From Polytrichum commune (lineage: Eukaryota; Streptophyta; Polytrichopsida; Polytrichales; Polytrichaceae): 64,000 bases of DNA. Positions within the stretch are counted from its first letter, which is position 1. Every line of letters starts with the position of its first letter. The DNA lies in the NCBI GenBank assembly GCA_950295325.1, contig OX485805.1, positions 560,501 through 624,500 of the forward strand. The letters run 5' to 3'. The notes beneath the pieces are model-generated. The model did not search any database, was not told where the DNA came from, and saw only the letters and a program-made list of their open reading frames with translations. Position numbers and translations under genes: made by a program. Shown piece after piece: positions 14,663-62,405 of the stretch.

Positions 14663-15141
14663 CTCCCACTTTGCGAGGTGGCATTGTACTCCAACCCCAT
14701 TATTTCACTTAACAACTCATGCATATCTCTCGCTAATGCTTTTGTTAGAATATCTGCTACCATATATTGCGTTGGACAATATTCTAGCTCTACAATTTTG
14801 TTTTCAACTTTTTCTCTAATAAAATGATGTTGCACGTCAATATGCTTCGACCTATCATGGTTGGTGGGGTTCTTGGCGAGTACCATAGAACCTTGGTTGT
14901 CGCACATGATGGTCGTGGCCTCCTCTTGTACACAACCTATGTCCTCCATTAGTTGCCTAAGCCAAATGGCCTCCCTCGTGCATCGGTTCATGGCCATGTA
15001 CTCCGCCTCCATTGTAGATTGCGCCACCGTTTATTGCCATTTGCTATTCCATGAAACGGCTCCCTCTCCAACAAAGAAAACATATCCGGAGGTAGACCTA
15101 CTGTTCTCCACATCGCCGGCCCAATCCACATCCGAATAACC
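14663..15141 (-). pseudogene. Copia RNase H segment
   Basis: Minus-strand 3' end of the Copia pol gene: ASLGYSDVDWAGD, SRSTSGYVFFVGEG, then STMEAEYMAMNRCTREAIWL, MCDNQGSMVLAKN and the terminal VADILTKALARD. One in-frame stop precedes VAQSTMEAEY. The upstream part continues at 36573 on the far side of the DNA transposon. It includes the left target duplication CGAATAACC (15133-15141). Confidence 0.9.
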
Positions 15142-15209
15142 CAGCGACGCTATCTTGTGAGCGGTGAGCAGTGAGCAGTGAGCGGCGAGCGGTGAGCAGA
15201 AAATTTGAA
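15142..15209. repeat. Left terminal inverted repeat of Mutator-like element
   Basis: Matches the reverse complement of 36511-36572, imperfectly, over about 60 bp. It contains repeated GTGAGCAGTGAGC / GAGCGGCGAGCGG units that could be subterminal transposase binding sites. Confidence 0.85.
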
Positions 15210-16340
15210 ATTTTTGAAAAAAATATTTGATTTAAAAAAAATAAAAAAATATTTGACTTAATTCTTACACCGAGTAGGACTCTTCGTATAGTTTCTTTAC
15301 AAATATGACTAAAAGTGGATGGTGCCTATAACCGTGGAGTAGAAGAAATTATAAACTTTTGAAAAAACCATCCATAAAAAGAAACGGAAGAAAACGAAAA
15401 AAAAATTTAGAAAAAAAACTTCCAAAATAATAGGGAACATAAAATAAGGGAATAAGAATGTAAATTAAAAATTTAAGTATTATCCGCGAAAACTCAAAAA
15501 AAAAAAAAAAAAAAAAAAAATGAATTTTTTTGTCCATGTCCTTTCTGTCGTGTAAACTAAGATCGTTAAACACAACAGATCGAGTGTCGTTGTCAACATC
15601 AATTAGCAAAATAAAATAGCAAACTAAAATACTAAACAACCACCTCTTCAAGATGAGGGTTTCTCTCTCCAAGCTTAAGAAACTAAAATGTCTCCTTACA
15701 AAGCTTAAGAAACTCTAAAATTCACACACAAGAGTCAAGCTATCTCTCACTCCACGAAGGGAGAATCCAAGAGTGCAAGTGGTGGAGAAAGAATGCAAAG
15801 GCTTTACTCATAATCTACTACACCATAGCCATGAGAAAAACAACAACAAGCTCTCTCTCTCTCTCAAAACACACTCACAAGACTTGACTTGACAACAATG
15901 GCAAGTCAAGAGGCCTTCCTCTCCATACAACCCCAATCCTATGTGGAGTTCATCCATGGAGTGGATGAACAACTAACTAGGACTCCCAATGGAGTCCGTC
16001 ACTCATCCCAACACACATGGACTCCTAATGGAGTCCATTTACTCTTAAATTGACGTAACTTAGCCCCCGATGTCACCTCACGTGACATTTCGGATCCGAG
16101 ACAAGAATATTCTATAGTCACAATTGAGAATAAAAAATAGAGAAAAATAGTCATTTTCATGGCAATCCTTTTGTATCCAAGATTGGAAAATTCATGGTTT
16201 CATAAATATGATCTTTTAATAATGTGCAGATTCAAATACAAATCAAAGGCAATTCAAATCAATTCCGCTATTTGAAGATGGGATTCCCCAACTAAAAATA
16301 TCACTACCAAGCACCTTGAAGCATGAAGGAAGTCAAGGAA
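15210..16340. other. Non-coding left part of Mutator-like element
   Basis: Holds a poly-A run at about 15497-15521, a CT-rich stretch near 15851, and GGACTCC/GGAGTCC inverted motifs near 15981-16040. A partial copy of the palindromic motif (CGGATCCGAGACAA, 16091-16104) occurs 3.8 kb from any other copy. No coding region is supported. Confidence 0.5.
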
Positions 16341-19300
16341 CTACACAAGTGGTTCAACAACTTTAGCAAGTTCTAAAATATGCATAACCTCATTGTAGCT
16401 AAAGCTGGGTGCGTGCATGAAAGTGTCCACTTTGTAATCCATCTTGCAGAAATAGCGAAAGATGTAGTACACATGCTTGCAATACCTCCATTGACCCTTC
16501 TTTCTTAAGGTCTCTGATGTCATCTTCATGAAATCGGGGCAGGTACATCCCGGTAAATCGGTGATGGTAATACAATACACCTTTCCATTACCACTATCCA
16601 TGGATATAACATACCCATATGCAGGGTATGGTATGGACGTAACGCTTGTCACATGACAATTGTTCATAAGTCCTGCACTGCTCCACTTATTGCGATGCTC
16701 AGGAGTGGGTGCATGTGAGCTTCTTCTGATGGCAAAACCGTCTCGAGTTGTAGGATGTGAGTTTGGATTCACAGGAGTTGGGAAATGTGATCTTGGAAGT
16801 GGCATGTTTGCTGCATTCTGGAATTGACGGCGCGGAGATAAGGCACCACGTTGTTGGAGTTGGAAACCTGCCTCTTCTAGAGCCAAGATTTCCTTCATAG
16901 TTAAGTTTGTACCCTTCTTCACAGGCCAGGTCATAGGAACAGATGGCCAACCTACCACAAAGGATTTCTTGGTCCCCTTCACACATCGATTAATGTCATC
17001 TGCACAAAACCAAAATTCTGTAGAAATAGTTCGATGAGTTTTGTACCCCTTCTTATCGTCAACATACGTAGGGGCAGGGGTGCCATGTGGACCTCGTCCT
17101 ACTCTGGTATCGCATTTCTCATTAGTATGAGCACACATGGCCTGGCATTTCCGTGCGGATTTGCTTGAAAGACGGGCAATGTGCCGCTTCAAAGGATCGC
17201 AGTTGGTCTCCAAAACGGAGGTAGTGTGTTGGACGCCCGAGTCAGGTTTAGATAGAGCCTCCTCAATGCGTGCTTTAGTGGACCTGGTACCATCACGTGG
17301 AATAGAGTAATTCACTGTATCCGACCGATGCGAATCATGACTTGATCCTGGTGGCAAATCTAACTTTCGTTTTGTGGACCCAAAAATCTCTGCGCCCTCA
17401 AGGCCTCCTTTCTTGGTCAATAGATCTGCAGCCCCAGGGTAAGAGTTAACCGCCTCAGCTATTAGCTTAGGGTCTCCAGAGCGTTGTGCATGGCGTAAAC
17501 AAAGTTCAGATTTGTCTGGTCCCTTTCCTCCCTTCCCCCCTTTCAACCAAAATCGGTAGCTTGTAATCTGCATGAAAGCACGAACGAGATCGTCCACCGT
17601 AGCCTCGTACAAACATGTCATTGTGTTTCCGGACTGTTGCAGCCATCTGTTGTGGACAGTTTCCGCTAGATTGCAAGAAGGCATGTCCGCCCTCTCGTCA
17701 AGAGTGAGGTCCTGGAGAAACCACATGCAAAGATGAGTAATGGTCTAACGATATGAATTACAGTGAAGGTTTAGTGTATTAAAACATTGGTCTTGAAAGC
17801 CCGGTAGAATGTTTCTAGAGGTGGCTCTTTTAAGGCACTTTGTCCAGTGAAACAAACATGTCCGCTCCTGGTTCTCCATGCATTTGTTGGGATCTCCGTT
17901 GCCATATACTTTGCGAACGGCGTGCCAATTGGCTCCAGCACTATCAGCCATGAAGCCCTTGAAGTTTGTAGTCTCTAATCCATTCTTCCGCACAACTTCG
18001 TTCAGATGAAGCCAAAACAACTCTTGGGCTTCTGCATCCTCAGATTGCATATCACAAAGGGCAATGGTCATTACCTTACAGTACTTGCTGTCGTAGACAT
18101 GGCATGCCATAGTAGTCCAACTAGAAACACGCTTCACATGGTCGAACATGACCCAACAATCTTGAAGGTCACCGCGGGTTGCATGCGCTTCACCAAGTCC
18201 ACACCACTCCCTGGACGGTCCACGGACATCTTGAAAACAAATACCTTTCCCTTGTTTTGACCTGGAAATTGATTTTGGTGGATGAAAACAAAGTTGGAGT
18301 AGTCTTTGAGTTCGAGAATGCTATCCGTAACTCCTCTCCCTTGACGGAAGAATCTCTTTGTTCCATATACGAAGTTGCGTAAGTTTGGTGAAGTAAGCGT
18401 CTCAAACTGGTCCATAACAACATCCATAGATGCTCCTTGAAGGTTGCTTCCGCCTGGAGTTGGACGAATCAAGGCATCCGCAAGATAGTTCTTACTTGCC
18501 GCCATGATGATAGCAGAGTTCTTTGCATTAGGAGTCTTCTGGACTTCCTTGGCAACACAATCATACATAATGTCCATGGAATCTTGACATGTTCCTTGAG
18601 ATACTGGATGATTGTGACATCCTAAGTGGATTGCAGCACGAGTGACATCATTGTCATTGGACGACACATGGTAGATTCTAGCATCACATAATGCTAAGCA
18701 AATGGGAGGTGTTTGACAAACCTTACACGCTAATGTGGATTTCTCACTTGGACCCCCTCCAATTGAAAATGGTATCAAAGCCACTCCAGACCACTCTGTG
18801 CAGTTTACCTTGCCATTGTTCCTGCAGATGTAATCACAACTCTGGTTTGGGCACTCAAGGTGTCCAGTACAAGAGGACCTACGATAGGTAAGGCCAAATT
18901 CATTCTTGATATTAGTTGTGATGGTTTTGCACCACGTATGGCCATCGTATTGTTTGCTCATTCCATCCATACTACCTCCAAATTGAGTTGGAATTCCTTC
19001 AGGAAGAGGAGGCAACTCAAATATCTTCTCTCCATCATAAGTTGGAGGTAAATACTTGACTTGTTCGTGATCAATACTGTCAAAATCTATTCGTGAAAGC
19101 TCTGAACGAGAACCCTTTCTAGAGGCAGTCTTTCTAATAGCAAATAAGATACTACGACTCTTCCTACAATTAGGATGAATAGGTGGATGTCCTGAAGAGA
19201 GTGACGGTGACACACTTGAGCGACTATGGTGCTGAAATGGACGTGCGGATCCAAGCAAGCCACGTGACTGAAATGGATTACTTGAAATGTCACTTAACTT

Positions 19301-19705
19301 GATCTCATTAACATTGTCATCGTCTGAATCACTCAATATATGTACATTTGATTCAGTCGGTTCGACTTTGACAGTAGCTAGACCAGGTACATGAACGGTT
19401 GATGTGGAAGTAGGAGGTGTCATGATTATAGTAGACCCGGACATTTGAACATCTGATAAACCGTACACTTTGTAAGTACCACTTGTTAAATTCCAGACAT
19501 AGCCCTCATCAGTACTATCCTTGACCTGAAATATAGACTCACATAACTCTCCATTAGCATCAAACACTTCCTCTTCCACATAAATTGTACCAGATCTGAA
19601 ACTAAACCTAAGACTAAGAAGTTGTTCATGGACAACTACCTTGTCGTCTGGGCCCAAAGACATCACAAATGGAACACCTCCAGCGTGGGATCTAAGAGAA
19701 GCCAT
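16341..19705 (-). pseudogene. Mutator-like transposase with SWIM zinc finger, broken
   Basis: Three minus-strand blocks form one former transposase. Block 1 (19705 to about 18160): a disordered acidic N-terminus, then a WRKY/GCM1-type zinc cluster (SSCTGHLECPNQSCDYICRN ... LGCHNHPV). Block 2 (about 18150-17750): DDE-type core elements (VMFDHVKRVSSWTTMACHVY; FMADSAGANWHAV; CLFHWTKCLKRA). Block 3 (17726-16341): CNLAETVHNRWLQQSGN, a basic linker, then a SWIM finger (CTCPDFMKM ... WRYCKHVYYIFR, the CxC...CxH pattern). Blocks 1 and 2 are out of frame by one base near 18165. Between blocks 2 and 3 there is a stop, and part of the core appears deleted. The gene lies inside the TIRs near the left end, as expected for the source transposase, but this copy is not functional. 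Confidence 0.85.
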
Positions 19706-20474
19706 TCTAAGTGTGCTATAGAAGATGGAAGACGTACAATCATGCTTTGAATAAGAAAATGCTTAGAAGAAGATGTAAGGTTTCAATTGATATGCTCATT
19801 ATATATCTCACCAAGGATGGGATTGTAGACCTTGTGGTCACACTATAGGTAGTGGGTGGAAGCTCAATAGAATATTTGTTGTATATGACAATGATCTGTA
19901 AAGTAGGTGTTGAAAGAGGCAAAACATATTTTATAAAGCATTGAAATTAAGAATTCCATTGACGGCTGAGACCACCAAGCATAAAGGTGTTAGGTGATAC
20001 AATAATAACATCCAGCCGTATTTATGCCAAAATTATAGATGTCCTTTAATAGCACTGAAATGGAGTTCATGACTCTATTCTAAGGCATGCAAGCTAAGAC
20101 CACTATTCATAGTCACTTAAATCTGTTAGATCCTAGATACTTAAAATTGCGTGACGATCGTACTTTGTCCTATGAGCTAATTAGATGCTTTATAATTATC
20201 CATTGCTATACTTGTTTGTTTTGGAAGACCTGTATTGAGAACATTGTGTAGAAGTACTCTAATAATAACAATGAGAATGTTTATCTAAATATAATCACGA
20301 GCCATGATCTGAAAATATTAATCATGAACCATTAGTGAAGTATCTGATGGGAAGACCCTAAAGCAATTTGAAGAGAATAATGAGTCATTCTATTGAAATG
20401 ACAATGTACATTATCCTTGGCTTCTATTTCGTTTCTAGTAGTGACTAGTTGTGGTGTGATTGTGAATCAGACAC
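19706..20474. other. Intergenic space between transposase and cargo gene
   Basis: About 770 bp between the divergently oriented transposase (minus) and cargo gene (plus). A shared bidirectional promoter region is plausible, but no motif is recognised. Confidence 0.4.
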
Positions 20475-21090
20475 ATGAAGGAGGGCGAGGTTCCAAGCGC
20501 AGTAGTTCCAAAAGCTCTTAGATCATGTAGAGGTAGAGGAAGAAGACGAAGTAGCCATTTTACACTGCCAAAGCAACTGAAGGCTCAACGGAGACGACGG
20601 GAAAAAATGGCTCTTAATCAAATTGTTGAGGTTGATAGCAGCTCAAATGATACAAACCATTTGAACTTTAAGGAAATAGGGGATATTTGCAAGGTAAATA
20701 TTCTCAATGGTTTATGGGTAGTCTATTGAGGGTTCGCGTATTGACCAAGCTGTGTATTCATAGACTTAAACTATGGCTGAGAAAACTCGGAGCTTTTTGC
20801 GTAACCTGCATTTTTGTGACTCTGACTGTGATCACTAGGGTTTTTATCATTAGGGTTTTGAGCATTCGTTGAATGATTCGCAGGGTATTGCCTGTGAAGT
20901 TGGCGACCTAGGGGACGCATGCCCCGGAGATCAGCCAACGATTGAGGCTCAATCTCCCCTTGCCGAAGAGGTAGGTTTTAGTAATTAGTTTTGAATGCCT
21001 TATGTAATTATTTCTGGAGGAGAGGAGGCTTCGCCGGGTTTACACATCCCTCATAGTGTGCGGTCCGGCTCTAGAACAACCTACATGAAG

Positions 21091-21114
21091 CCTTGTCTCG
21101 GATCCGAGACAAGG
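21091..21114. repeat. Palindrome, GGATCC-centred copy 1
   Basis: Perfect 24-bp palindrome made of TTGTCTCGGATCCGAGACAA extended by CC/GG on each side. It lies left of the 28S rRNA fragment, inside the second intron of the cargo gene. Confidence 0.9.
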
Positions 21115-21654
21115 GTGAAAGGGCAATTTTTTCCTGATTCTTTTGAAAATCTCAGGCAAGGAATCTGATATTGAACCATCCAACCTGGCGAGAGTTTCAG
21201 TGTGCAGCTTCGAGGTCGGGTGGGATCCTAGAGAAGCATCTTCACAATCTCGACTGCTATAGAGAAGCATCTTCACAATTACATTACACGGATTGTTCAT
21301 TATTTTTTTTGTAGACTCATTCCATTGCATACTTGCTCACAAATCACAAGTCTGCTTCTTCACCCGAAACCCTAAACTGCGTCATTTGTGGGAAATGTGT
21401 GGTGAGTTGAGGGGGAGAGTGTCGATTTCGAGGTTGTGTGAGTGAGACCAGTGTGGTGAGTTTTAGCCTCTCCCCCACCTAGTCCCGGTCATCCATCCAT
21501 CCATCCAGAAACCTTTTACCCCCCCACCCTCTTCTCTTCTCCTTCCCGTGTCCGGAGAGGGAGTTTGCTTCTCCGCCATTGAACTGGCATATGCTTTGGC
21601 CTTTCCCTCATTAGCCAGCTGCTCTGCCCTTTCCTGTAACACGATCTGTGTCTA

Positions 21655-22365
21655 TCTCCGGGTGATCCGATTCCAGGGTGGGCGGGCTGTTAAAAAGAAA
21701 AGAGAACTCTTCCCGGGGCCCTCGCCGGCGTCTCTGGATTCGGCCACGTCACCGTCCGCTGCCGAGGCCCAGTTCGGGAATATTGACCCGATCCCCTTTC
21801 GATACACGGGGCGCATTGCGCCATTGACACAGGATTGCCCCATCTCTTAGGATCGACTAACCCATGTCCAATTGTTGTTCACATGGAACCTTTCTCCACT
21901 TCAGTCTTCAAAGTTCTCATTTGAATATTTGCTACTACCACCAAGATCTGCACCGGAGGCCGTTTCACTCGGGCTCACGCCCAAAGCTGCTCCACGACCC
22001 CCGCGCCCTCCTTTCCATCGCGGTACTTGTTCGCTATCGGTCTCTTGCCTGTATTTAGCCTTGGAAGGAATTTACCTCCCACTTAGAGGGCTGCATTCCC
22101 AAACAACCCGACTCGCAGACAACGCCTCGTGGAGCAACAGGGTCCGAACTCGACGGGGTTCTCACCCTCTCCGACGTCCCGTTCCAGGGAACGTCCGTTG
22201 CAGAGGACGCTTCTCCAGACTACAATTCGAGGGGCGAAGCCCCTCGATTTTCAAGCTGGGCACTTTCCGGTTCGCTCGCCGTTACTAGGGAAATCCAGGT
22301 TAGTTTCTTCTCCTCCGCTTAGTGATATGCTTAAACTCAGCGGGTAGTCTTTCCTGATCTGAGGT
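21655..22365 (-). pseudogene. 28S rRNA fragment, internally deleted
   Basis: Minus strand. The 5' end of 28S rRNA is at about 22365 (the complement reads CTACCCGCTGAGTTTAAGC, then the universal ATATCACTAAGCGGAGGA region). It runs through the D1 region to AACAAGTACCGCGA (about 22012-22030), then jumps to GGGGTCGTGGAGCAGCTTTG, which belongs much further downstream in 28S. It continues through GAAGTGGAGAAAGGTTCCAT and TGGGTTAGTCGATCCTAAGA to CACCCTGGAATCGGATCACC (about 21655), where similarity ends. Roughly 1 kb of rRNA is missing at the junction. It is antisense to the cargo gene and lies in its 3.5-kb intron. Open frames translated across it are spurious. Confidence 0.9.
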
Positions 22366-22390
22366 CAGTCTCACGGCTCAGTCTCACGGC

Positions 22391-22418
22391 TTAGTTGTCT
22401 CGGATCCGAGACAACTAA
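22391..22418. repeat. Palindrome, GGATCC-centred copy 2
   Basis: Perfect 28-bp palindrome: the 20-bp core with TTAG/CTAA extensions. It lies 26 bp from the 28S rRNA 5' end. A half copy (GTCTCGGATC) follows at 22471-22480. Confidence 0.9.
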
Positions 22419-23042
22419 ATTTCAATCATCCATGGCCATATTTCATCCCAAGTTTTAGGGTTTCCATTTTGTCTCGGATCTTGTTGTCTCTTAAAGGTTT
22501 TGATGTTCCTGTAAGGTTAGGATTGCAATACATGTATTTCAAAATCGAAGCCACTTAAGACCCATCTACCTTATAGCAGACTTACCCAAACACAGGAATA
22601 TTACTGATGTTTTAAGCATCTGTAATACAGCAGAAAAAAAGAGATGTAGGGGAATTGCAGAAGAAATTGTTGACAGGTAGTGAGATCGATTACAACCCTC
22701 ATCGTTGTTATATCGAGCTTGAACTGGTCGTACCTTTACTTAATCTGATGCAGGTGAATTGGGGTTGTTTTTTTTTGTTTTTTTTTTTCACCTTCTTCCT
22801 CATGAATATAATGGATCCTCTGCTATGATTACAGCTTGTTGACTTTCTGAAAATCCCAAGCTGTGTGATTTATATTGCAAATGTGGCATTGGCTTATACC
22901 AAAAGAGATGAGTGTTGAGTTATGTATCCCCCCACACAAAGCGCACGAGAGGTTGGATATATATGCCTCAGCTCTCAAAACTCTTCCTAGTCTCCCTTTG
23001 TTACCAGGGGATCCCACCTGTCAGGTTCCTTGTGCCTCAATG

Positions 23043-23072
23043 AAGCCTTGTCTCGGATCCGAGACAAGGCTT
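23043..23072. repeat. Palindrome, GGATCC-centred copy 3
   Basis: Perfect 30-bp palindrome: the core extended by AAGCC/GGCTT. The extensions differ between copies while the 20-bp core is constant, so the core itself appears to be the conserved unit. Confidence 0.9.
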
Positions 23073-23670
23073 TCGGGTCCCAACAGGTATGCTCACACTG
23101 TATATGGATCTGTTACACAACAGGTATGGATCTGTTCATTTTTGTTTGAAGCTTTTGATTCCTGGTTGTGATTGATTCATTTCACCCTCAATTTGATTCC
23201 CCAATTGTGATTGATCATAATTGGGGAGACCTATATCACGACCACTTAATGAGCACAAGAATCTTCACTTTCGACAACGAATAGGATGGTTCATACGTGC
23301 TCCAAAGTGTACGAGGAAAGTGGCTACGGCCTTGATTTGGATTTGCTAGCCGTCTTGTGCTAGTGGCGGGTTTCATATCCTAGGAGACGTGGCGTAGACG
23401 GACAAAGTAACCATTCAAGGCGCACCTACCTTAGAGTTTGGATGAGCACAAGTGTAGTTACAAATCGGCATTGGGCAAGCAAAGCAGTGACCGCCACCCG
23501 GCTAATTCATAAATGCTGAGCTCATCACTGCTCGGGTGCAAATTCCATGGGGATGGATCGAGGAGGTGTGCTTCCTCATAGCCCGCCACGGATGAGTGCT
23601 CCCTCATAACTTGCTCGGAGTGTTGCTGGTTGTTGCAGCAGAGGTAGAGGCGGAGATGGTGTAGGAATGG

Positions 23671-24319
23671 TTGTCTCGGATCCGAGACAAGGGTAGAGGG
23701 GTGCTGTTTGTTTTGCTATTTTTGAAAATGCTCTTGGTGTCATTTCCGTGGGTTTTAAGGTAGTTAGAGCTTGTGTATATCTATAAGAGAAATATGTTAG
23801 TTTGCCTTTCTGACTGTGCGTTAAATGGGTTGTCTCGGATCCGAGACAAGGGTGGACGGATACTATTTCATGCATTTGTTTTTGAAAATGCTCTTGTCCT
23901 CATTGCTTGGTTGTAGTTTTGTTTTTCGAAAATGCTTTATTTCTCAATTCGTTAAGGGACTCACTCCAATTTTGTGCGTTAAATTTGTTGTCTCGGATCC
24001 GAAACAAGGGTGGACGGGTACTATTTGTTTTGTTTATTTTGAAAATGCGTTTGTTCTCATAGCCTTGTGTTCTAAGCGGCAGGGCTTCATGTACATCAGA
24101 GAAACCCGTCAGTTTTCCTCTAGGATTGTGCATTAAATGGGTTGTCTCGGATCCGAGACAAGGGTGGAGGGCTACTATTTCATTTTCTTTTTTTGAAAAT
24201 GCTCTTGTCCTCATTGCTTGGTTGTAGTTTTTTTCTTTCGAAAATGCTTTATTTCTCAATTCGTTAAGGGACTCACTCCAATTTTGTGCGTTAAATTTGG
24301 TGTCTCGGATCCGAAACAA
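23671..24319. repeat. Tandem array of the palindrome, ~158-bp period
   Basis: Five copies of TTGTCTCGGATCCGAGACAA or a near copy lie at 23671-23690, 23830-23849, 23988-24007, 24142-24161 and 24300-24319 (spacings 159, 158, 154, 158). Copies three and five carry the same change (GAAACAA in place of GAGACAA). Each is followed by AGGGTGGA, then a unit with TTTGAAAATGCTCTTGT and CTCAATTCGTTAAGGGACTC. The array ends about 120 bp before the exon of the cargo gene that encodes the ParB-like segment. It could be an intronic regulatory array or a binding array for the cargo protein. Confidence 0.85.
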
Positions 24320-25696
24320 GGGTGGACGGGTACTATTTCATTTTCTTTTTTTCAAAATGATCTTGTTCTCATTGTTTGGTTTTAGTCTTTTTTTTGAAAA
24401 TGCTCTTATTTCTCAATTCTCTTATCCATATGCGCAGATGACTCATGAATTTGCAGAGGGTGAAAGCGAGAGCCCAAAGGTCAACATGGAGGTTGAAGAT
24501 GGTAGTTTAGCAGAGATTGAGGAGAAATTACGGAGAGCCGTGAGAGGCAATTCACATGATGCAATTCAAAGTGCACTTGAATCTCCAAACTGTGAACTTG
24601 ACGTGTCCTTGTGCATGATGATTCCTATGAAGGATGTTAGAGAGCCCTTGAAGACCGACATTCAGAAGTTGAAGGCAGAGTTCTCTCGTGGGTATAGGCG
24701 GGCATCAGCCTGCTTCTATCTATCCTTAAGGAGTTTTAGAATGGAAGAAGCAACCGTCACAGAGACTCATCGGACTTCATGGTCGGATTTGTGGCGCAAG
24801 GAGGATTTGGAATTTGAAGCTCGATTGGCAAAAAATCCAGCATTAGGAAAGTATTCTAATCGGTTTTTCTACGTATGGGACGGGAATCACCATCATATTG
24901 CATGGATGGATGTCATTAGTGCCCTCCATAAAGATGATGCATTTTTTCATGTTCCCGTACGTTCTGTTTTCATCAACGTATCTTCAGAAAACTGTAACAT
25001 GCTATTGCATGCGATGACAAATTGGAACAAGTAAGTTCTTCAAAATATGTTATTTGAATTTCGAATTTATTGTTATTTATTATTTAAATACTCATGTTAG
25101 TAAATGCATCGTGTATCATTTGTATTCTTAGTTGAGGTGTATGCAATCCAGGAAAAACCACGTTGATCACGTCGCCCAACACTTCACGCACAATGTCAAG
25201 CGTGTCCAGCAATTGGAATTGCTAGACTTGTCAGTGATGAAGACCTTCAAGCTAGTATTCTTGAGTGGAATCGTCACGGTGGGAAGAGACGGAAGTGGTA
25301 TCATCTTACTCACGATGCATTCATCAATTGTTTATACGAGGTAAATTACTTGTCTACTTTTAATTTGTCACCTACAAGTTTAAATGAGAACTTGTATGAA
25401 TTTGTTATCTTTGTTTGTAGCGAGAAATCTCCGCAGCACAAGAAGAGGCAATCATGTGGTACAAAGACAGTCTTGTCACCGGTACAGGCGAAGATAGAAT
25501 TGGAAGTCCGTTTGAACTACAAGCCGCCGCAACTAAGGTTGTTGAGGCAAAGAAGACCTCCCTCTCCACAGACCTATCTCGGTACCTCGCAATTGCCAAT
25601 CCAGCAAATGGAGAGGGTTTCATAAGAGAGGTATGTGCTCCACCATCTATCATAGATTTTTTTGTTTTTTGTAATTTTATTCAACTTGGTTTGCAT

Positions 25697-25716
25697 GGTC
25701 TCGGATCCGAGAGAAG
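25697..25716. repeat. Degenerate palindrome copy in intron
   Basis: GGTCTCGGATCCGAGAGAA, a variant of the core palindrome, sits in a small intron of the cargo gene about 65 bp after the exon ending GFIRE. It is the right-most copy in the window. Confidence 0.75.
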
Positions 25717-26879
25717 TTAGATGGGACGTTTATAATAAATATTTATAAAATAATAATCCTCTTACTGTCTTTTACATGGTTATTGTGTGCTTTATTTTAG
25801 AAGAAGTTCTATGTGGCTGAGGTAAGTGATTAGTTAAATTAGGAGGCCTTCACTGGTTTTTGTGATGTTATTTTGTATGGTTGGCTTGATTACGGGTTTG
25901 AGAAGATTAAACCTAAACAATTAATGTCGTAAATTTTGCATATATGTCATTAAATGTTTTCTATATTACGTCTTTTTTTATAGTGCAAATTTTTACTAAT
26001 CTAATTGTACTTTTGAAAGTAGATTATTCGTCACTTTGATATATTTCAAGTGAAGCCTGAGATGACTTCAGAGAAACTACAACTTATTGCAACAACAAAG
26101 GTTTCTTCGAAGTACAAAGAGAGATGGTTAAGGTGGTGGAATATGAGTAAGGAGAGTCGTAAAGAATACAACTTTCTTCCCTCACCCGCTTCTGATTCAG
26201 TTCTTCGGATTTGGATAGATCAAACTGCCTTCTGGGCTGGGGTATATTATTTTGAACCGTATATTTGTATTTTTTATGAAGTTTAAGTTATATCTAAAAT
26301 TTGAAAATTAGATGGATTGAATTGAATTTGTTTTGCTGAATAATTGTACATTGTTGCAGTTAGAGGAAGAGGCAGTAAATCGATTTGAGAAAATTATAAA
26401 GGAAGATGCTATCATATTAAAGACCGAGGACTTGCCCAACCCAGTGGACGATATTGGAACTTGGATTGAGTCTCATTCTATTACTTTGTGGGGGAAAGCT
26501 TTCAAAGAAATTTTTCAAATGATGGCACTTATACGAAGAAGGAGTTATTTCTTGTCCAAGCTGGTACTGAGAATGCTATGAAGAGAGCTATCTTGAGATA
26601 TTTTTGGACGGAGTTGGTGATTAAGGGGGCCATTGATAGGAAGAACATTCTTCAACGTTTTAACAAGTGGGTGGATGTTTCTAGTAGTGAATGTATTTTT
26701 TTAGACTATCAAAAAAAATATTTTGGAAGACCTCATCTTCTTCAATGTCCTTGGTATCTTGAATTAAAGAAAAATGAAAGATGTCGTGGAGAGGAGAGAG
26801 CCTTGAAGGCTAGTTGTGACAATATGATGCAACAATTAGAGGCTGAGAATTTGGTACATATTGAAGAAGATGCATCGGA

Positions 26880-27852
26880 TGTCGCAACCCTTGCTAGGTC
26901 CCTTAACAATCTTGCCAATTTTCAATTCTAGCAAAGGTTACGAGTGGCTAACCCTTCGCATACCGCCATGCTAATGGTTAGCTCCTCTAACCCCGGACCA
27001 ATAGTTCATAGGAGGGAACCAACCCTCCTACTTTGCTTTCGGGACTCACCCCTTAATCGGTAACCCATTTCCCCAATGTGGACTTCCATCCATTGAAGTC
27101 CAATCCTATGTTGATCATCGCGTTGCCGGAGCAACACTACAACAACCCGAACCATACTAGGCAACTATGGCCTCACAATGGGCCAATGCCCATGGAGGCC
27201 GTGCCGTTCGGCCTCGGGTGGGTGAGGCCACACCACCTCACCCATATAAGCCTCTAGGACTCTACGCGGGGCCCCTACCCCACCGTCAACCAACCTCTTG
27301 TCTCTCCACCAAGAGTTGGGGCCAAGTGGACACTTTCCCTTAGCCGCTGGGCCTAGAAGCCCCCATCAGCTTCAGACCATCATAACTTCCTTGTATGATG
27401 TCTGATTCCAACAACCAACCACTCCATCCTCATCTACGCTTCACGTAGATGCCGATGGACTCCTCATTTGCCCCATTCGGGCAAGTCTTGAGGAAGTTAT
27501 GCCTGTTTGAACCTTGGCAGTCCCGGGAATCACTCCCAGGCACTGCTGTACCAGGGCGCTGTCCCGGGACAGCACCCCACTCAAATGGCCATAACTCCTA
27601 GCTCACACCTCCGATTGAGGTGATCTTGAGCATTCTAGAATCACCACGCCATGAACTACGCATAGCTCATGGCCTCACCCTCATGCCTCCTAGTCTTTGT
27701 GGGTGGGAGGCGTTCCCAACGCCCGGGGCCCTCACCCACACTAGGATCACTTGGGCCCTCTCACCAACGGCGCCACAAGTCCCGGGTGTCACTCCGGGGT
27801 CCCCCTTGTGCCCATGGTGTTTCGGCCACTCCTCATGGAGAGGTGCGCGACA
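26880..27852 (-). repeat. Gypsy 3' LTR
   Basis: Same length and, by eye, the same sequence as 33059-34031. Contains the inverted motif TCCCGGGA within GCGCTGTCCCGGGACAGC (near 27557) and CTACGCTTCACGTAG (near 27435). Protein-like frames beginning MILSILESP recur in all three LTR copies of the window and are not a gene. Confidence 0.9.
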
Positions 27853-29096
27853 CTCACCCCTACCAAACGGAGTCGATGTCCTCATTGACTATACTCGTAG
27901 TCGGCACACCAATTCTCAAGTTGCCATCCTCTATGGTGCGGCATTGTGTTTACCTTAGGGCGCGACCCCCACAATGCATCTTCAAATTTGGCATAGTCCC
28001 AAAGGTGTCGTTCCTAGGTGGTCCGTTAGCGACCTTGGATCTCTCATCCAAGGACCTAACCTACACTAGACCCACCTACTTTGGGACTCACTTGGGTTGC
28101 CCCTCCTTTGGGGCCTCCCCCGTTAGGCTCCACTAGCCTAACGTGACACATCTAGGCGAGACCTCAACGCTTCCACTAAGTTGTCTCGGTTGCAACTCCG
28201 AGATGGCTTTCCATTGTTAAGCCACGCCTCGATCGCACGGGGGTGATGCCAAGTCCCGCCCGACTCGGTTCCCACTTTGCTCTTTCGAGACATGGGTTCA
28301 TGACTCCCATGCGCCAACTTTCGTTAGCTCGCGGGTAGCACTTTTATGAGCACGCGCCATCACCTTGTCCCCGCCCGGACAAGCCCACGGCTAAGAAGTT
28401 TTTTGGTTTTATCCAAGGCCCCTCCTAGCCATGGCCCCAATTACTCGGCTTACCCAACCTAGTTTGGCATATCTATTCCCCCTCTTCCACTAACCAAGCA
28501 CAAGTACAAGACTAGGACCTCATCTCGTACTTTTCTCTTTGCACCACTAAAGTTTGGACTTTATTCCCTCAAGCCAAAGAACAAGTTAATGTTGTGGAGC
28601 AATTAGCCTCGAAGCTAAGTGTGCTACTAGCGTCTCTCCCCCACTAAAGGAGATTGATGTCCTCATCAATGCCTACGCTTCATTTTATTGGAATGTCTAG
28701 CCTTAGTTTCTTCAAAGTGCTTTACCAATTCCTTGGCGTTCATCATGTCTCTTGCCGCTACCCAAACGGCTTCTTTCTCATGGTATCCTCACCATTTCAC
28801 CAAGTACTCCTTTGTACATTTTCTTTCATTTTCACTTGGTCTTCCTACACTTGAGGATGCCCTCTTACCTCATGTTCCAAATGACCTCCACAAGGTCGGG
28901 ACATGGCCTAATCACTTGCTTGTGATCGGGCCACAAGGTGTCGTCCTAAAATGACTTTCGTAATGAGACATGAAATGTCGGATGCACTTTGATGTCCGGC
29001 GGTAATTCCAACTTATACATGTCCTTGAACACTTGTTCCACAATGGAAAACGAAGCTCCAATTTTGGACATGAACTTTTGGAGCGAGGCCTTCCGG
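27853..29096 (-). other. Gypsy 3' internal region, low coding content
   Basis: Region between the 3' LTR and the integrase relic. The complement of 27853-27862 is purine-rich (GTAGGGGTGAG type) and may be the polypurine tract. No domain recognised. Confidence 0.5.
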
Positions 29097-31500
29097 CTAA
29101 GTGAAGTTGTTCACATTCAACAACACCTTTTGGCCCACCTCATTCTCCACTTCGCGTCTTCCGGCATGTACTAGCACTCCGTAGCACCTTTGGGCTTTCT
29201 CCACCAACAACTTGGTCATCTCCAAGACTTGGTTACCATCCTTGGCCAAGTCCTCACCATCTTGGTTAAACTCTAGTGTTGAATGTGCCCCCTCGAGAGC
29301 TAGGTTAATAGGTTGGAGCGCATCCCCTCCATAAGCCACCACCAAAGACCACCCCTTGGTAGCCAAGTGCGTGGCTACATTGCAATTACACTCCGCTCGA
29401 CCCACATAGTCCGCCCAATCTCCTTGGTCCGCCCCCACCAAGTTCCTCAAGTATTGCTTCAAGTCTCCATTCACACGCTTTGTTTTCCCATCCATTTGGG
29501 AATACACGGCCGTGCTAAACCTTAGTTTCAATACAACCTCCTTAGAGAAATGCATTGAAAATGCACTTGTGAACTTTGGATCTTGATCCCACACAATCAC
29601 TCTTGGCAACCCGTGGTGCCTCAACCATCATTTGAGAAAAGGCTATGCGGTCTCCAACGCGGTGGCGGTTCCCACAATCGGCACCATGTGTGCCAACTTG
29701 GCAAACCGCTCTACCATCAACAAGATGGCATCATATCCATGTGACTCCGGCAAACTTGTGATCAAGTCCATGCACATACTATGCCATGGCGCCGACGGGA
29801 TAGGCAACGGTTGCAAGAAACCGCCTTGCTTTTGGTAAGAGGCTCGGTTCACTTGGCACTTTATTCACGCCTTCACAAAGTGGGCTATATCCTCCTTTAT
29901 GCACCGCCAACGGTACCTCTTTGACACCATTCTATGGCGGTTGTTTCTTTCTCCTTTATGGCCGGGAATAGGATTATCATATTCCTCCTTCAAAACTGAT
30001 AACCTCAACTTGCCTTGTGGCACATACACCCAACTTTCCTTGCACTTGAACAATCCGTCCACCAACTTAACCTCTTAGAGCACCTTGCTCTTGCGAAGCT
30101 CACCTAAAAGCTTTTGTACTTTGGGGTAGTTAATTTATTCCTCCCGTATCTTGCATCACAAATTTTCTTCGCCGGCACACATTAGCCACAAGGTTTGGAT
30201 GGTTCTCATTGCTTGGAACTCTTCCGGTCTACTTCGCGCATCCGGCACCACCTTTCCACGGTCCGGTTTGTGGATCAAATCCACCTTCATAAGCGCCAAA
30301 CTATCATGCCACCGCAATGACTTGGCGCTCACTTGCGCTTGAATGTCAAAATTATTTTAGGACACATTGTCCATATAGACCTATGCTTTGTGCGACCCCA
30401 AATAGTGTCGCCACATCTTCAAGCAATGCACTACGGCAAAAAGTTCTTTGTCATGAGTTGGTTGTCTTCTTTGACAACCATCGAGCTTCATGCTCCCATA
30501 TGCAATGGCCATCCAATTACACATAATCCACCATTGGCAAAGTTACTCACCCCCGTATGCACGTCAAAAGATTTGTCAAGCTCCGCGAACTTGAGCACGG
30601 GCGTCTAAGAGAACTTGCTCTCAAGCTCCCCAAAGACTTGGTGGCAAGGCTCATCCCACTCTTGGGATAGCCATTTCTTTCACAAGTCGGATAAGGTCGG
30701 ATAACCATCAAGCTTAACGCTCTCATATGCAATGGCCATCCATCTTACGTTAACCATCCGCCAATGGCAAAGTCACTCGCCCCCCCCTTATGCACCTCAA
30801 AAGGTTTGTCAAGCTCCGCGAACTTGAACACGGGTGGCAAAGACAACTTTGTATTAAGCTCCCCAAAGACTTTGGGGCAAGGCTCATCCCACTCTTGAGA
30901 CAGCTATTTCTTTCACAAGTTGCACAAGGTTTGACAACCTATAAGCTTAATGCTCCCATATGCAATGGGCATCCATCTTGGATCAACATCCGCCAATGGT
31001 AAAGTTACTCGTCCCCGTATGCACCTCAAAAGGTTTGTCAAATTTCGCAAACTTGAGCACGGGCGGCGAAGAAAACTTGGTCTTAAGCTCCTTAAAAACT
31101 TGGTGGCAAGGCTCATCCCACTTTTGGGATAGCCATGTCTTGCATAAGTTGGACAAGGTCGGACAACCATCGAGCTTCATGCTCTTATATGCAATGGCCA
31201 TCCATTTTGCCTCAACATCCGCCAATGCTAAAGTCACTCGCCCCCGTATGCACCTCAAAAGGTTTGTCAAAGTCCGCGAACTTAAGCACGGGCGGCAAAG
31301 AGAACTTGTTTTTTTTTAGCCCCCCAAAGGCTTGGTGACAAGGCCCATTCCACTCTTGGGATAGCCATTTTCCTCAATAAGTTGAATAAGGTCCTAGCAA
31401 CCTTAGAAAACTCTCGAATGAAGTTGTGGTACTAATTGGCTAGGCCAACAAATGACCTAAGCCCTTTTTGAATCAAGGGCCAATTCTCCTTTTGGATTGC
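29097..31500 (-). pseudogene. Gypsy pol relic (RT, RNase H, integrase)
   Basis: Minus-strand fragments in Gypsy order. RT end near 31380-31480 (LRSFVGLAN, then FSKVARTLFNLL). RNase H entry (VLKFAKFDKPFEVHTGTSNF) in the amplified repeats at 30540-31340. Integrase zinc-binding-like segment (LKEEYDNPIPGHKGERNNRH) at 29865-30065. Integrase core (WHSMCMDLITSLPESHGYDA; PRVIVWDQDPKFTSAF; FSTAVYSQMDGKTKRVN) at 29400-29850. The tail (29097-29390) is rich in charged residues. Multiple frameshifts and stops show it cannot be translated as one protein. Confidence 0.85.
30540..31340. repeat. Four-copy ~231-bp tandem repeat within Gypsy pol
   Basis: The segment TGCACSTCAAAAGRTTTGTCAA recurs at about 30558, 30790, 31020 and 31250. 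Each unit repeats the RT to RNase H junction (FDKPFEVHTG ... CHQVFKELKTKFSSPPVLKF). This is internal amplification of pol sequence, unusual for an active Gypsy element. Confidence 0.85.
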
Positions 31501-33058
31501 CTTGACATTCTTCATGTTCGTCCACCAACTTCCTTTGTCACCACATACCTCAAGAACTCAATCTCTCGTTGAGCAAAGTTATTTTTCACTCCTTGGCGGT
31601 AATTTTTTTTTGGGCAACACATTGGTGAATACATCCTTGTATCTCACCAACATCACACCAATGTTGTTTGGGGGAGGGCCATCTTTCCTAGCCTCCCCAT
31701 ATGTTCCTTGGAGTTGCTCCAATTGAACCACGACCATTATTTTTTTATTTTTTTATTTTTTTATTTTTTTCATTCGGTCCATTAAGACCAAATTCAACTT
31801 AGGTCCTCCTACCATAGGAGTCCTTGTTAATTTGAACTTGAATTCTTTGCCATTATGACACATCATAATGCACCGCAAGCACACCGGCTTGCACCTCACA
31901 TCTATCATGTGAGTTTCAAAGAAGGTGGCCTTCACAATGACATGCATTTCATCTATTTCACTTGGTGTGAAATTTTGACAAAAATCCAATGTCCCACATT
32001 GAAAGGTTACATGCATCGCGGCCTCCTTTGTCTCATGCGGTTGTTCTTTCCAAACCGCACCTTGGGGGGCTTGCCCGCTCTATCAATCGGCAAGTCCCAA
32101 CTCCCTTGTGAGTTTTGGGCTCAAGAAGGCATGGCTTGCCTTTTTGTTAACCCATTAGACGTTTGTCCCATTCATTTGAGCCTCAAGGTATAAAATAGTT
32201 GGCCTTGGCTTAAGGCTACTAGCCTTGGCCACAAAGCCATCGTCTAACATTTGGTCCTTGGCAACACCATGAGTTTGGCTTGGTCCGCAAGGCCAACTTT
32301 TAACACTCCGTCCGTGGCACAAATATGATCTAGCTTGGTACCACCAAGCCACCTTCTCACATTCCGTCCGCGGCACGAGCTAGCATGATTTGCCTTGGTA
32401 TAATGGGCCAAACTACTTGCACTCATTTCCTTGGGACCTCTTTCGGCTAAACCCACTTTGTGGTGATGTGCCGCCCAACTTCTTCTTAGGACCATCGGCT
32501 TCAATGCTCTTCAAATCTTTATGATTCGCACTACGTCCTCAAGAAGCTTTGGGGTCCTGAACATGGTTTTCACTACCCGCTTTTGAAACCCACCTAAAAC
32601 GATGCATTTTTTAGAAAGCTCGTCCATCCTAGATGTACCATTCATTTGGGTGTGAAATTCGCACATATACACCTTAAGAGACCCCGCGTGCCTCATGTGC
32701 CCCAAGTTCATTTCAACATCACCACCTTCTAAGCATTTCGAATTGGAATTTCAATCCAACATTAATGCCCTCCAAGGTTTTGGGTGCATTCGGTATTCTA
32801 GGCCCCAAATGTTTTTTTGAGGTGTGCGGGAGCCCTTTCAAAGGACTCCACCATTTTCCTTACTGAATCCACCATCATGCCCACCATTGTCATGAGAACT
32901 AATGGTATGGTCAAATTCCATTTACACATGATCTTTGTTCCAATTTGAACCTCACAACCTTTTGGAAACCCCGGCTCACCATAATAACCCTCAGGTTTGA
33001 TAGCCATGTCTCCCTCAAAGTGCTAGCTCAAATATTGGAACCCTGCTCTGATACCAAG
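31501..33058 (-). pseudogene. Gypsy gag/5' internal relic and primer site
   Basis: Minus-strand remains between the RT region and 5' LTR, with fragments such as PEGYYGEPGFPKGCEVQIGT and many stops. A TTTTTTATTTTTTTATTTTTT low-complexity run lies at about 31739-31770. The primer binding site abuts the LTR (33041-33058). Confidence 0.65.
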
Positions 33059-34031
33059 TGTCGCAACCCTTGCTAGGTCCCTTAACAATCTTGCCAATTT
33101 TCAATTCTAGCAAAGGTTACGAGTGGCTAACCCTTCGCATACCGCCATGCTAATGGTTAGCTCCTCTAACCCCGGACCAATAGTTCATAGGAGGGAACCA
33201 ACCCTCCTACTTTGCTTTCGGGACTCACCCCTTAATCGGTAACCCATTTCCCCAATGTGGACTTCCATCCATTGAAGTCCAATCCTATGTTGATCATCGC
33301 GTTGCCGGAGCAACACTACAACAACCCGAACCATACTAGGCAACTATGGCCTCACAATGGGCCAATGCCCATGGAGGCCGTGCCGTTCGGCCTCGGGTGG
33401 GTGAGGCCACACCACCTCACCCATATAAGCCTCTAGGACTCTACGCGGGGCCCCTACCCCACCGTCAACCAACCTCTTGTCTCTCCACCAAGAGTTGGGG
33501 CCAAGTGGACACTTTCCCTTAGCCGCTGGGCCTAGAAGCCCCCATCAGCTTCAGACCATCATAACTTCCTTGTATGATGTCTGATTCCAACAACCAACCA
33601 CTCCATCCTCATCTACGCTTCACGTAGATGCCGATGGACTCCTCATTTGCCCCATTCGGGCAAGTCTTGAGGAAGTTATGCCTGTTTGAACCTTGGCAGT
33701 CCCGGGAATCACTCCCAGGCACTGCTGTACCAGGGCGCTGTCCCGGGACAGCACCCCACTCAAATGGCCATAACTCCTAGCTCACACCTCCGATTGAGGT
33801 GATCTTGAGCATTCTAGAATCACCACGCCATGAACTACGCATAGCTCATGGCCTCACCCTCATGCCTCCTAGTCTTTGTGGGTGGGAGGCGTTCCCAACG
33901 CCCGGGGCCCTCACCCACACTAGGATCACTTGGGCCCTCTCACCAACGGCGCCACAAGTCCCGGGTGTCACTCCGGGGTCCCCCTTGTGCCCATGGTGTT
34001 TCGGCCACTCCTCATGGAGAGGTGCGCGACA
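33059..34031 (-). repeat. Gypsy 5' LTR
   Basis: 973 bp, TGTCGC...GCGACA on the plus strand, followed by the duplicated target TCGGA. Any open frame running from this LTR into the cargo exon at 34037 is an artefact of the insertion. Confidence 0.9.
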
Positions 34032-35841
34032 TCGGAGGTGGGTGATGACAACTCTATATCTGACAAACAAAGGAAGAAATTGGCTGACAAGAAAGCAAAG
34101 GTTGAAACTCGTTTGAAGGAGAAAGAAGAAAAGAAGAAAGGCAAGGAGGAGGAAATAAAGTTGAAGAAGGAGGTTGCGGCACGGAACAAAGAGTTGGCGA
34201 AGCTTGTGTTAAAGGAAGGGCCAGAGAAACTTCTTTCTTATGTGGGTATTTCTCCTTCAGGCAGTAGCATGTCCGCTACTATTATTCCTTTGGTTTCTCA
34301 GGTGTCTCTTTCCGTTGCCATTTTTCCGTCACAAACGGTGTATACTATCCCATGCTCGCAGTTGGATGATGTAGACAGTGGGATAGAGATCATCAATGAT
34401 AGTCCTTCATGTATTTTGGATTTGTTTGATGATGTTACTGAGAGTGATGAGCCAAAGATTTGGAGGCGTATGAAAGCATGGATTAAAGATCATCAAGGTA
34501 AAAATATTCGAAGCTATGCGGGTTGTGAAGCTGACAATGTAGTTGATCTTGTTATCTTTGATGTTCCGGAGGATTTACCTGTTCCTGGACTTGGTATTGC
34601 TGGTGAAATTCCACCTTGGAACCGTCATCCAAAGACTAAACCAAATGATATAGATGGAAAAGTGGAATGTATATGGATCAAGAGGCATTTTGAGTTTGCC
34701 ATGCAGTTTCTTCAAGATGATGGTGCCCTCATTATATTTTATCCTGATTCAAAGTTTATATCCAATGAGCTTTTATCTTGGGCGGATTGGGCAAATTTTC
34801 AGGAGGAATCAAAGTGGTTTGCAATTAACGGCCTTCTTTTGACTGTCCCGGATCATCCATCCCGTACGCACAAGTGTTTCATGGTGAAATGCTTTGTTAG
34901 AAAGGAAAATCCGGATGAAGAGGTTCCAATGTCCAATTTTGTGTTTTGTGACCGTCCTGAACTTCTTGTACAGGGCATCAAGTTGTCATCAGATGGACAT
35001 CTCACAAACCTCATTGATGGTGATTCTCTAACTGTTCAATCGGAGAATAGAATGCCATTTAGAGGTGCACGGGAGAAGTCTTCTAATTTACTCATGGCTC
35101 TTATTGATCTCTGCACGGTTGAAGATGACATTGTTATGGACCTCACAGCCTCCACAGGTATTATTTTTTTCCTATACTTTTCTTTTGATATGTTTGGTCA
35201 TTAATTTATACCAAGTACTAAATGGTATTGTTTATTTCAGGTGCTTCTGTTCGGGCATCAAAGAGTCTTCATCGTCATATTATTGCATTTGAATATGACA
35301 GTATCTTATACAAAGAGGTATTGGTTCCTCTTCTTCTCCGAGCTGAAGAAGTTCAGTCAGTCAAAGTTACAAGGTCTTCTCCAAAGAAGAAACGCCCTTT
35401 GGAGAATGCAGATGAGCCAGAGAAGAAGACTATTGCCAAGCGAGCTTGTAAGTAAGTCTACACTATCTATCTTCAATTTTTTAAACATTTCCTCAATTTT
35501 TCTTACCAACATTTTTAAATGGTTGATTTTTACTTGTTTATAGATGGCGCAAGGAAGCGTTGAAGTCCTCTATGATGAAGTATGATGGAAGCATTCTCTC
35601 ACACTATATTAGTAAGATTAGAAGCCCTATTAGACCTCTTCAGCTTCCTTTTCATGCTGAGATTGTTGCAGAAGCGTATGCAGCTACTTCATCACCAGAC
35701 CCTTCTCCAGAAAAACCTAGTAGTTGCCGTCCTGTAGAAAAATATTTCCATATTTCTGCAGAAGTTGATGGATCATCTAGTGACAGTGATAGCGAGGAAG
35801 GATGGATTGACGCTTCTAATGATGTTGAAATGTCTTCGTGA

Positions 35842-36572
35842 TCATTGAAGTACTTCACATAAAAATACGTGTATTTCCTTCTAATATATGATCTATTTTT
35901 ATTTTTATGAACCTTGGATTTTAAGAACTTTAAAGGCTGTGAAGCTCTATATAGCATTGTCCTCGACATCGACGACCAATTGCTTTGCTCCGATGTTCAA
36001 ACGGAAGCTAGACATATGTATGATGAATTGTGATGATTGTTTGAGACATTTTAGCAAAACGTCAACAAACTAACATTTAATGTCAAGCATAAAAAATTCA
36101 TGAATTTGCGACAAACGACTCTGCATGACATATTCAAACAATAAAATACAAATCCTGATTTTTGTAAAAAAAAAATTGCGCACTTAACCATGATGCGTAT
36201 TTAAATGGATGCGTACTTTATCAACCACTTTAATGTCTAGATGATGACTATTTAAATTGGGCCATTTAAAAAAAATTCAACCATGTTGATATGCATGTTG
36301 GGAGATTCTAATGTACCAAAGATGTTTTTTTTGTTTACAAGGCCTTTCCAAAAAAAATTATTTGTGTGAACTGCAAAAATCCCCCCGCGGGAATAGGACC
36401 TTGATTAATTTTTGTTAAATAATATGCAGATTTTATAGAATGAAACCATAAATTCTCCACGGTCATAGGGTCTATATCATACATTTCATTGAAAAATTTG
36501 AAAAATAAAAATTCAAATTTTCTGCTCACGGCTCACTGCTCATCACTCACCCCTCACAAGATAGCATTCCTG
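35842..36572. other. Right non-coding end and TIR of Mutator-like element
   Basis: A/T-rich 3' flank of the cargo gene, with a possible poly-A region. It ends in the right terminal inverted repeat at 36511-36572 (CTCACAAGATAGCATTCCTG at the tip). No copy of the GGATCC-centred palindrome occurs here. Confidence 0.75.
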
Positions 36573-61828: not shown

Positions 61829-62189
61829 CAAGGTTGGGCTTACTCATGTGCGTGTCAAGTGTCAACATGACAGAGGGAATATTAGAAATTATTAGTGCTT
61901 GGTAAAAGAATCCCATGTTAAAAACCATGTTCATTGAGTAATGTAATACATGTTGGGAATAGAATTCCACCACTTTTATTTATTTATTATGTTGTTATGA
62001 GGTGGGGGCGACAAGTTGGAACACATGTGTTGTGAAATTATGTTACCCCCTTATATAAAAAATACATTCACTTTATTTCAAATGACAACTCACTATTTAT
62101 ATTTGACCACCAAGATGCCCACACTATTTCTTTGGTCTTGGACCCTAAGCAACAAACCCACCCTTATTGATTATGCACGGGGAGATTAT

Positions 62190-62232
62190 CGCTGCTACAC
62201 ACTACTTATTTATTATGGAGTGTGTAGCAGCG
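62190..62232. repeat. Perfect hairpin in RPL21-B upstream region
   Basis: Arms CGCTGCTACACACT (62190-62203) and AGTGTGTAGCAGCG (62219-62232) are exact complements with a 15-nt spacer. Arm A has only one CGCTG-like end at the equivalent place (near 9536), so the hairpin arose after duplication, probably by templated copying of the adjacent GTGTGTAGCAGCGAGC sequence. Confidence 0.75.
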
Positions 62233-62405
62233 AGCACAATGGTCCACCTTACCGGACCGAGTTTGTAGGTTCGGGCGAGTCCAGACCTAGACACGAGGCT
62301 CTAGACCTGTTTAGGGTTTGGTGCTCAAACCCTGCGTCGTCTCTCCTTTCTCTCTCTCTTTCTCCTCTGTGCAGGCTAGGCCAGTTTCGCCACGCCTCAG
62401 ACACC

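Follow-up and report, generated by a model that had tools for sequence, protein, structure and literature searches.

A Mutator-like transposon of Polytrichum commune with a ParB-like/methylase-like second gene and repeated palindromes

Why would a plant transposon carry, beside its transposase, a gene that resembles a bacterial ParB-methylase fusion? The question is raised by a 64,000-nucleotide stretch of Polytrichum commune (assembly GCA_950295325.1, contig OX485805.1, positions 560,501 to 624,500 of the forward strand), hereafter called the window, with positions counted from its first nucleotide. An earlier, sequence-only reading had placed a Mutator-like element with such cargo at 15142–36572 and had suggested that the encoded protein might protect the transposon or alter its silencing. 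We re-examined the element, its copies elsewhere in the genome and its more distant relatives, and found that a palindrome accompanies the gene in several families.

Palindromes and the second gene

The element at 15142–36572 measures 21,431 bp in total, including a younger long terminal repeat (LTR) retrotransposon of 7,152 bp. Because 26880–34031 is this nested retrotransposon, the transposon proper amounts to 14,279 bp. Its terminal inverted repeats of about 50 bp are 82% complementary (15142–15190 vs 36524–36572), and the right end in reverse reads CAGGAATGCTATCTTGTGAG. The 9-bp target duplication of the sequence-only reading is present and has that length, but its two copies, CGAATAACC and CAAATAACC, are inexact, matching at 8 of 9 positions. 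Excising the element in silico joins the flanks into a minus-strand Copia RNase H region in a single frame (...NLKGY / SDVDWAGD...), so the host frame is restored as claimed; the Copia sequence near the insertion has in-frame stops of its own.

A whole-genome protein query with the methylase-like exon of the second gene (407.8 Mb, 64 contigs, only the best candidates being scored) returned at least 108 matches. At least 25 of them, at 77–100% identity, represent the window and 17 other places (77–96% for the latter), and at least 83 share 29–45% identity with the exon. We fetched ten of the 17 places and extended four of these leftward to both ends. Parts of the gene were found in all ten fetched copies, several with gaps, and the window-type right end in eight, with different flanks beyond it. 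The window-type left end was found in c12 and in all four extended copies, although c3 has TAG for CAG. The left end, the transposase (95–100% identity per piece), the gene, the palindromes described below and the right end are all present in each extended copy, over lengths of 13.9–16.0 kb. Exact 10-bp target duplications flank c7, c8 and c11 (CCCTTGAAGC, CTGTGAGAAT and CTAAACCTAC), c12 has a 10-bp duplication with 2 mismatches, and c3 shows no clean duplication. Two features that mark Mutator-like elements (MULEs), terminal inverted repeats and target duplications of 8–10 bp, are thus seen both in the window (9 bp, 8/9) and in copies (10 bp). The sequence-only reading had staked its interpretation on homologues lying inside Mutator-type ends, which is where they lie in 4/4 extended copies. 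Such sharing of ends, gene and transposase is more than chance: the window holds a single broken copy of a Mutator-like DNA transposon that exists in many copies and carries two divergent genes. Since the second gene recurs between the same ends, this gene is standing cargo of the transposon family. In the 42 kb of window flanks, no palindrome and nothing matching the protein of the window family was found.

The palindrome TCTCGGATCCGAGA occurs ten times in the window with at most one mismatch; all ten sites are inside the transposon, and variants with 2 or 3 mismatches are absent from the window. Shuffled sequences are expected to hold 1.35 sites on average at up to 3 mismatches, and 0 of 100 shuffles reached ten. 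Palindrome words also top the list of the element's dispersed repeated words. All ten sites fall outside the predicted exons and the terminal repeats, even though half of the element's sequence is taken up by exons and transposase. The last five of those in the large intron sit in a tandem array with units of about 158 bp, in which mean identity among the five units is 95% in the palindrome vs 70% elsewhere. Genome-wide, TCTCGGATCCGAGA has 764 exact copies and its reversed control has 0. It was present in all ten fetched copies (1–12 sites each), inside the ends in all four that were extended. Viral contigs, searched for the palindrome as well, yielded nothing, and neither did the other searches of viral contigs and GTDB genomes.

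We next asked whether the association holds beyond the window family. Four palindrome clusters (18 sites) were picked away from any match to the methylase exon, and all four loci (L071–L074) turned out to hold a distant N-terminal domain of the protein, at 24–41% identity. Their palindrome, CCCTCTCGGATCCGAGAGGG, lies upstream of the gene relative. One of the four loci also shows the methylase half, and in L074 the opposite strand carries a diverged transposase. In family D, which is 27–36% identical in aligned pieces, there are nine TCGGATCCGA cores with other flanks, mostly CTGTCGGATCCGACAG. Within 8.7 kb, family B (loci L064 and L061 joined; C3, 34.42 Mb) has five copies of a quite different 16-bp palindrome, GTGCCGTTAACGGCAC. 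The palindrome flanks differ between families, a pattern that co-evolution of protein and site would produce.

The gene and the state of the window copy

Coordinates of the element's features are collected in Table 1. The second gene has ten exons on the plus strand, counting two likely 5′ exons, both of which were found in five of the ten fetched copies; neither was found in the fetched stretch of c12. All introns of the model are GT-AG, the 7,152-bp gap being the insert, and the two parts of exon 8 that flank it form a single exon in copies. The peptides quoted in the sequence-only reading are present: FYVWDGNHHHIAWMDVI in exon 24438–25030 and, in the methylase-like part, DIVMDLTASTG joined to ASVRASKSLHRHIIAFEYD by splicing across 35157/35241. 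The window copy is damaged in ways of its own. The exon 4 deletion is peculiar to it, all nine covering copies being longer, and at the frameshift near 26516 all ten copies carry extra bases (two in c12, one in each of the other nine). Among the copies, c3 is without most of the last two exons. Two pieces of eukaryotic large-subunit ribosomal RNA lie in the large intron on the minus strand, at 21550–21890 and 22016–22344 (Rfam RF02543, 106 and 267 bits).

Table 1. Features of the transposon at 15142–36572 and its immediate borders (window positions)
Feature	Position	Strand	Remarks
Left target-site duplication	15133–15141		CGAATAACC; sequence
Left terminal inverted repeat	15142–15199	+	CAGCGACGCTATCTTGTGAG, then GTGAGCR repeats
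Palindrome, 1 mismatch	16088–16101		past 3′ end of transposase gene
Transposase gene	16341–19762	-	broken in window
Likely exon 1	20475–20693	+	arginine-rich start; found in copies at 96–99%
Likely exon 2	20884–20970	+	
Large predicted intron	20971–24437	+	8 of 10 palindromes and ribosomal DNA (rDNA) pieces
Eight palindromes	21096–24316		at 21096, 22398, 23051, 23674, 23833, 23991, 24145, 24303
Exon 3	24438–25030	+	ParB-like motif (DGNHH in window)
Exon 4	25152–25340	+	~20-nt deletion relative to copies
Exon 5	25421–25630	+	
Palindrome	25699–25712		in intron
Exon 6	25801–25821	+	7 codons
Exon 7	26023–26241	+	
Exon 8, first part	26360–26879	+	frameshift near 26516
Nested LTR retrotransposon	26880–34031		splits exon 8, outside the system; two identical LTRs of 973 bp; TCGGA duplicated
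Exon 8, second part	34032–35157	+	coiled region; methylase motifs IV (DVPE) and I (DLTASTG)
Exon 9	35241–35451	+	remainder of methylase domain, AFEYD
Last exon	35544–35841	+	with stop
Right terminal inverted repeat	36507–36572	-	terminates in GATAGCATTCCTG
Right target-site duplication	36573–36581		CAAATAACC; sequence

The transposase gene is interrupted by a frameshift near 18.17 kb and a stop at 17745, and four copies have about 210 nt more in the stretch that holds this stop. By eye and by pattern, the transposase has a SWIM-like CxCx(n)CxH at 16547 and CLFHW. In Pfam, searched up to E 10, its matches were to unrelated families and below cut-off, and none was to a MULE or SWIM model.

The nested retrotransposon contains a 229-bp tandem repeat (30473–31370), and a reversed sequence at 40656–41641 is 93% similar to its LTR. 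Elsewhere in the window, 7771–9540 and 62228–63998 form a 1.8-kb inverted repeat (95% identical), whose right copy is overlapped by an L21e ribosomal protein open reading frame (62001–62657). A further open reading frame, at 1234–2316, encodes an F-box protein (PF00646, 32 bits). These two reading frames, the Copia element and the ribosomal RNA pieces would be in keeping with a land plant.

The methylase-like and ParB-like halves

The spliced two-exon C-terminal part passes the Pfam model N6_N4_Mtase (PF01555) with 27.4 bits vs a cut-off of 26.7, while its first exon alone gave no PF01555 match in Pfam; the family D sequence scores 27.7 bits. With a phage-derived methylase profile the score was 25.7 bits, against a maximum of 6.6 in 1000 shuffles. 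Moreover, a profile built from four families and compared with PDB found DpnA (3e-7) and CcrM (1.5e-6, over profile positions 4–221 of 234). These matches bear out the N6/N4 methylase assignment of the sequence-only reading and place the predicted C-terminal half in the N6/N4 DNA-methylase family.

In N6/N4 methylases the catalytic motif IV has the form [DNS]PP[YFW]. This motif is absent here. Window-family sequences have DVPE (9/11) or NVPE (2/11) instead, and three other families, read at five distant loci, have IPEN (L059, L060, L063), QPEG (L062) and YPNG (L061). The altered motif is followed by LPVP except in c7 (LPVH) and L063 (LPVR); a pattern search of L072 for motifs IV and I found none. 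The S-adenosylmethionine (AdoMet) site is partly preserved: D..A..G.S and A.E.D are invariant across sequences of four families, all of which retain the acidic residue that follows the next strand. Motif I is without the usual FxGxG. Since motif IV is altered in all sequences read, the change is a family trait.

The ParB-like half is more elusive. Proteins of the ParB/sulfiredoxin superfamily have a G.HR..A motif, placed between a strand and a helix. The motif DGNHR is present in eight of ten window-family sequences that cover it, the exceptions being the window (DGNHH) and c11 (DGNHC), and [DE]GNH[RW]..AW could be aligned in seven sequences across families, with R in six. A family profile matched a phage ParB profile with a score of 32.8 (probability 61%), which became 29.6 (38%) upon adding four more sequences. 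Both versions exceeded all of 100 column shuffles each (maxima 21.6 and 17.9), over a match that spans 13 residues only. Pfam scans of the N-terminal sequences of the window exon and the families returned no ParB model; matches below cut-off were to other families (Phage_T7_Gp13, E 0.05; Utp13, E 0.016; and, for family C, Phage_tube_C, E 0.0026, and DUF1015, E 0.16). PDB searches gave nothing relevant to this half. We therefore call this half ParB-like and not ParB.

The window exon by itself was also tried as a ParB candidate and rejected: it scored −1.1 bits on a phage ParB profile, ranking at about 394 in a set of 1002 made up of the exon, the reversed exon and 1000 shuffles (best shuffle 6.2 bits), and hhalign of this single exon with ParB found no match. 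Single-sequence structure models of the ParB-like and the methylase-like exons were useless (predicted local distance difference test score of 35 for each).

The ParB/Srx-like reading of DGxH...A holds in part: the motif is conserved, and a family profile finds ParB over 13 residues, but Pfam, PDB and direct profile tests of the window exon do not. The suggestion that degenerate catalytic positions mean binding rather than catalysis, or decay, has to be divided between the halves. Being family-wide, the change of methylase motif IV is not decay of this copy. On the other hand, the arginine of the ParB-like motif is lost in the window but found in 8/10 sequences, and therefore that change does look like decay of the window copy.

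Possible use of the palindromes

What might such a protein do with the palindromes? We propose that it is a DNA-binding factor whose targets would be the palindromes that lie in introns and non-coding DNA of elements of its own family. By recognising them it would leave these elements accessible for expression or transposition, which is what VANC does for VANDAL; its binding, the target bases and the effect are what we infer. According to excerpts of PMC5735166 and PMC10398659, VANC proteins bind short motifs tandemly repeated in VANDAL introns and non-coding DNA and lift the silencing of their own family. As those excerpts describe them, VANDAL elements resemble the window element in belonging to the MULE group, in having an extra gene beside the transposase and in bearing short, family-specific motifs as tandem repeats, within introns and other non-coding sequence. 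They differ in that the VANC motifs quoted there are 8–9 bases long and non-palindromic, whereas the window element has a palindrome of 14–20 bp. By the same description, the methylase domain and ParB-like motif also set the window protein apart from VANC. Anti-silencing is a property of VANC, and for the window element it is proposed by analogy. The analogy, already drawn in the sequence-only reading, gains because of the palindromes, which that reading did not mention. Overall, self-recognition of the VANC kind by this protein, with anti-silencing as its use, seems to us evenly poised between right and wrong. A broader scenario, offered tentatively and as possible rather than probable, is that, in an old and diverse group of eukaryotic transposons, a ParB-methylase-like protein of bacterial type may have become a reader of family-specific palindromes with its catalytic site altered. 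The code would resemble parS or methylase sites, with a core shared by several families (TCGGATCCGA) and changing flanks, and would serve to escape silencing.

Several observations weigh against these proposals. No palindrome is repeated in the 8.3 kb read of family C, and the seven copies that were read through all fall short of a fully open frame. In the tandem array the conserved block extends past the palindrome, its best-conserved 20 columns (97%) beginning 1–4 columns right of the palindrome start. Locations of the palindrome come from 50 of its 764 copies (15 in fetched copies, 18 in the tested clusters, 17 unexamined). Families B, C and D and loci L071–L073 are known from stretches around the gene or palindrome. 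Past selection on the protein is only weakly indicated, because the ratio of non-synonymous to synonymous substitution rates (dN/dS), on average 0.56 for exon 34032–35157 (dN<dS in 53 of 55 pairs, which are not independent), is modestly below the 0.65 and 0.78 of the other two frames. Exon 24438–25030 likewise has a mean of 0.56 (dN<dS in 36 of 45 pairs, again not independent), and the value for the exon at 26360, computed across the frameshift, was not used.

The palindromes could also be sites of the transposase or of a host factor, or act as hairpins, in which case the second gene would assist in transposition or replication and leave the palindromes unread. Transposases bind repeated sites, L074 has its diverged transposase, and one palindrome in an intron gives a good RNA fold (z −5.0). 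In addition, the 8.7 kb read of family B contain the palindrome with no match to the N-terminal domain. We nevertheless consider this alternative rather unlikely, since the ten palindromes of the window avoid predicted exons and terminal repeats alike, and L071, L072 and L073 combine palindromes and gene with no transposase match in 6–9 kb, stretches that may be too short. Targets of methylases are often palindromic as well, so the sites might be substrates of an active amino-methyltransferase with an unusual motif, which would write N4-methylcytosine (4mC) or N6-methyladenine on them (GGATCC or GATC core) as a self-mark. The partly kept AdoMet residues, with their two invariant patterns, agree with this idea, and a bacterial-type methylase of bdelloid rotifers is described as writing 4mC (PMC8885841). 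However, the aromatic residue of DPPY is missing wherever the motif was read and motif I departs from FxGxG, which makes an active enzyme improbable. Finally, the gene might be a captured host fragment, a functionless passenger in the manner of Pack-MULEs. MULEs are described as capturing genes (PMC6446971 and PMC13317346), the element also contains rDNA pieces, and the seven copies read through are all broken. Yet many copies have the gene, with its exons in the same order, between the same ends, and relatives at 24–45% identity recur too, several with palindromes; capture is therefore very hard to credit. Recognition of its own family's palindromes by the protein is the reading we prefer.

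The same order of a ParB-like part followed by an N6/N4 methylase is found in ParB-methylase fusions of phages and bacteria, namely phiH YcdA and, as described in PMC5512222, Bce_0392. In the Pfam scan that gave no ParB model for the window family, phiH YcdA scored 121.7 bits with PF01555 and 22.4 bits with ParB_N (E 1e-4, below the cut-off of 26.3). It has DPPY, whereas the window protein has the altered motif IV, a long middle region between the halves, and introns in its gene. Fungal DNA transposons with TET/JBP dioxygenases (PMC12730594) are likewise eukaryotic elements whose cargo, from a family of base-modifying enzymes, probably counters silencing, but they differ from the window element in enzyme, hosts and transposon groups. 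Bdelloid N4CMT (PMC8885841) and the 4mC methyltransferases of Marchantia (as cited in PMC12344493) are further bacterial-type amino-methyltransferases in eukaryotes; they are described as enzymes that the host took up from bacteria rather than as cargo of transposons. In the open-licence PMC literature we found no plant MULE described with the present cargo, a scope that leaves its absence unproven.

Sequence-specific anti-silencing by transposons is already known from VANC proteins. Here a different protein and a palindromic site occur together in several families whose proteins are 24–45% identical. Palindrome clusters led to the gene at 4/4 loci, so that a rule linking protein to DNA word becomes testable by comparison. 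More generally, the findings point to a bacterial-type methylase domain that may have been re-used in eukaryotic mobile DNA with its active site altered.

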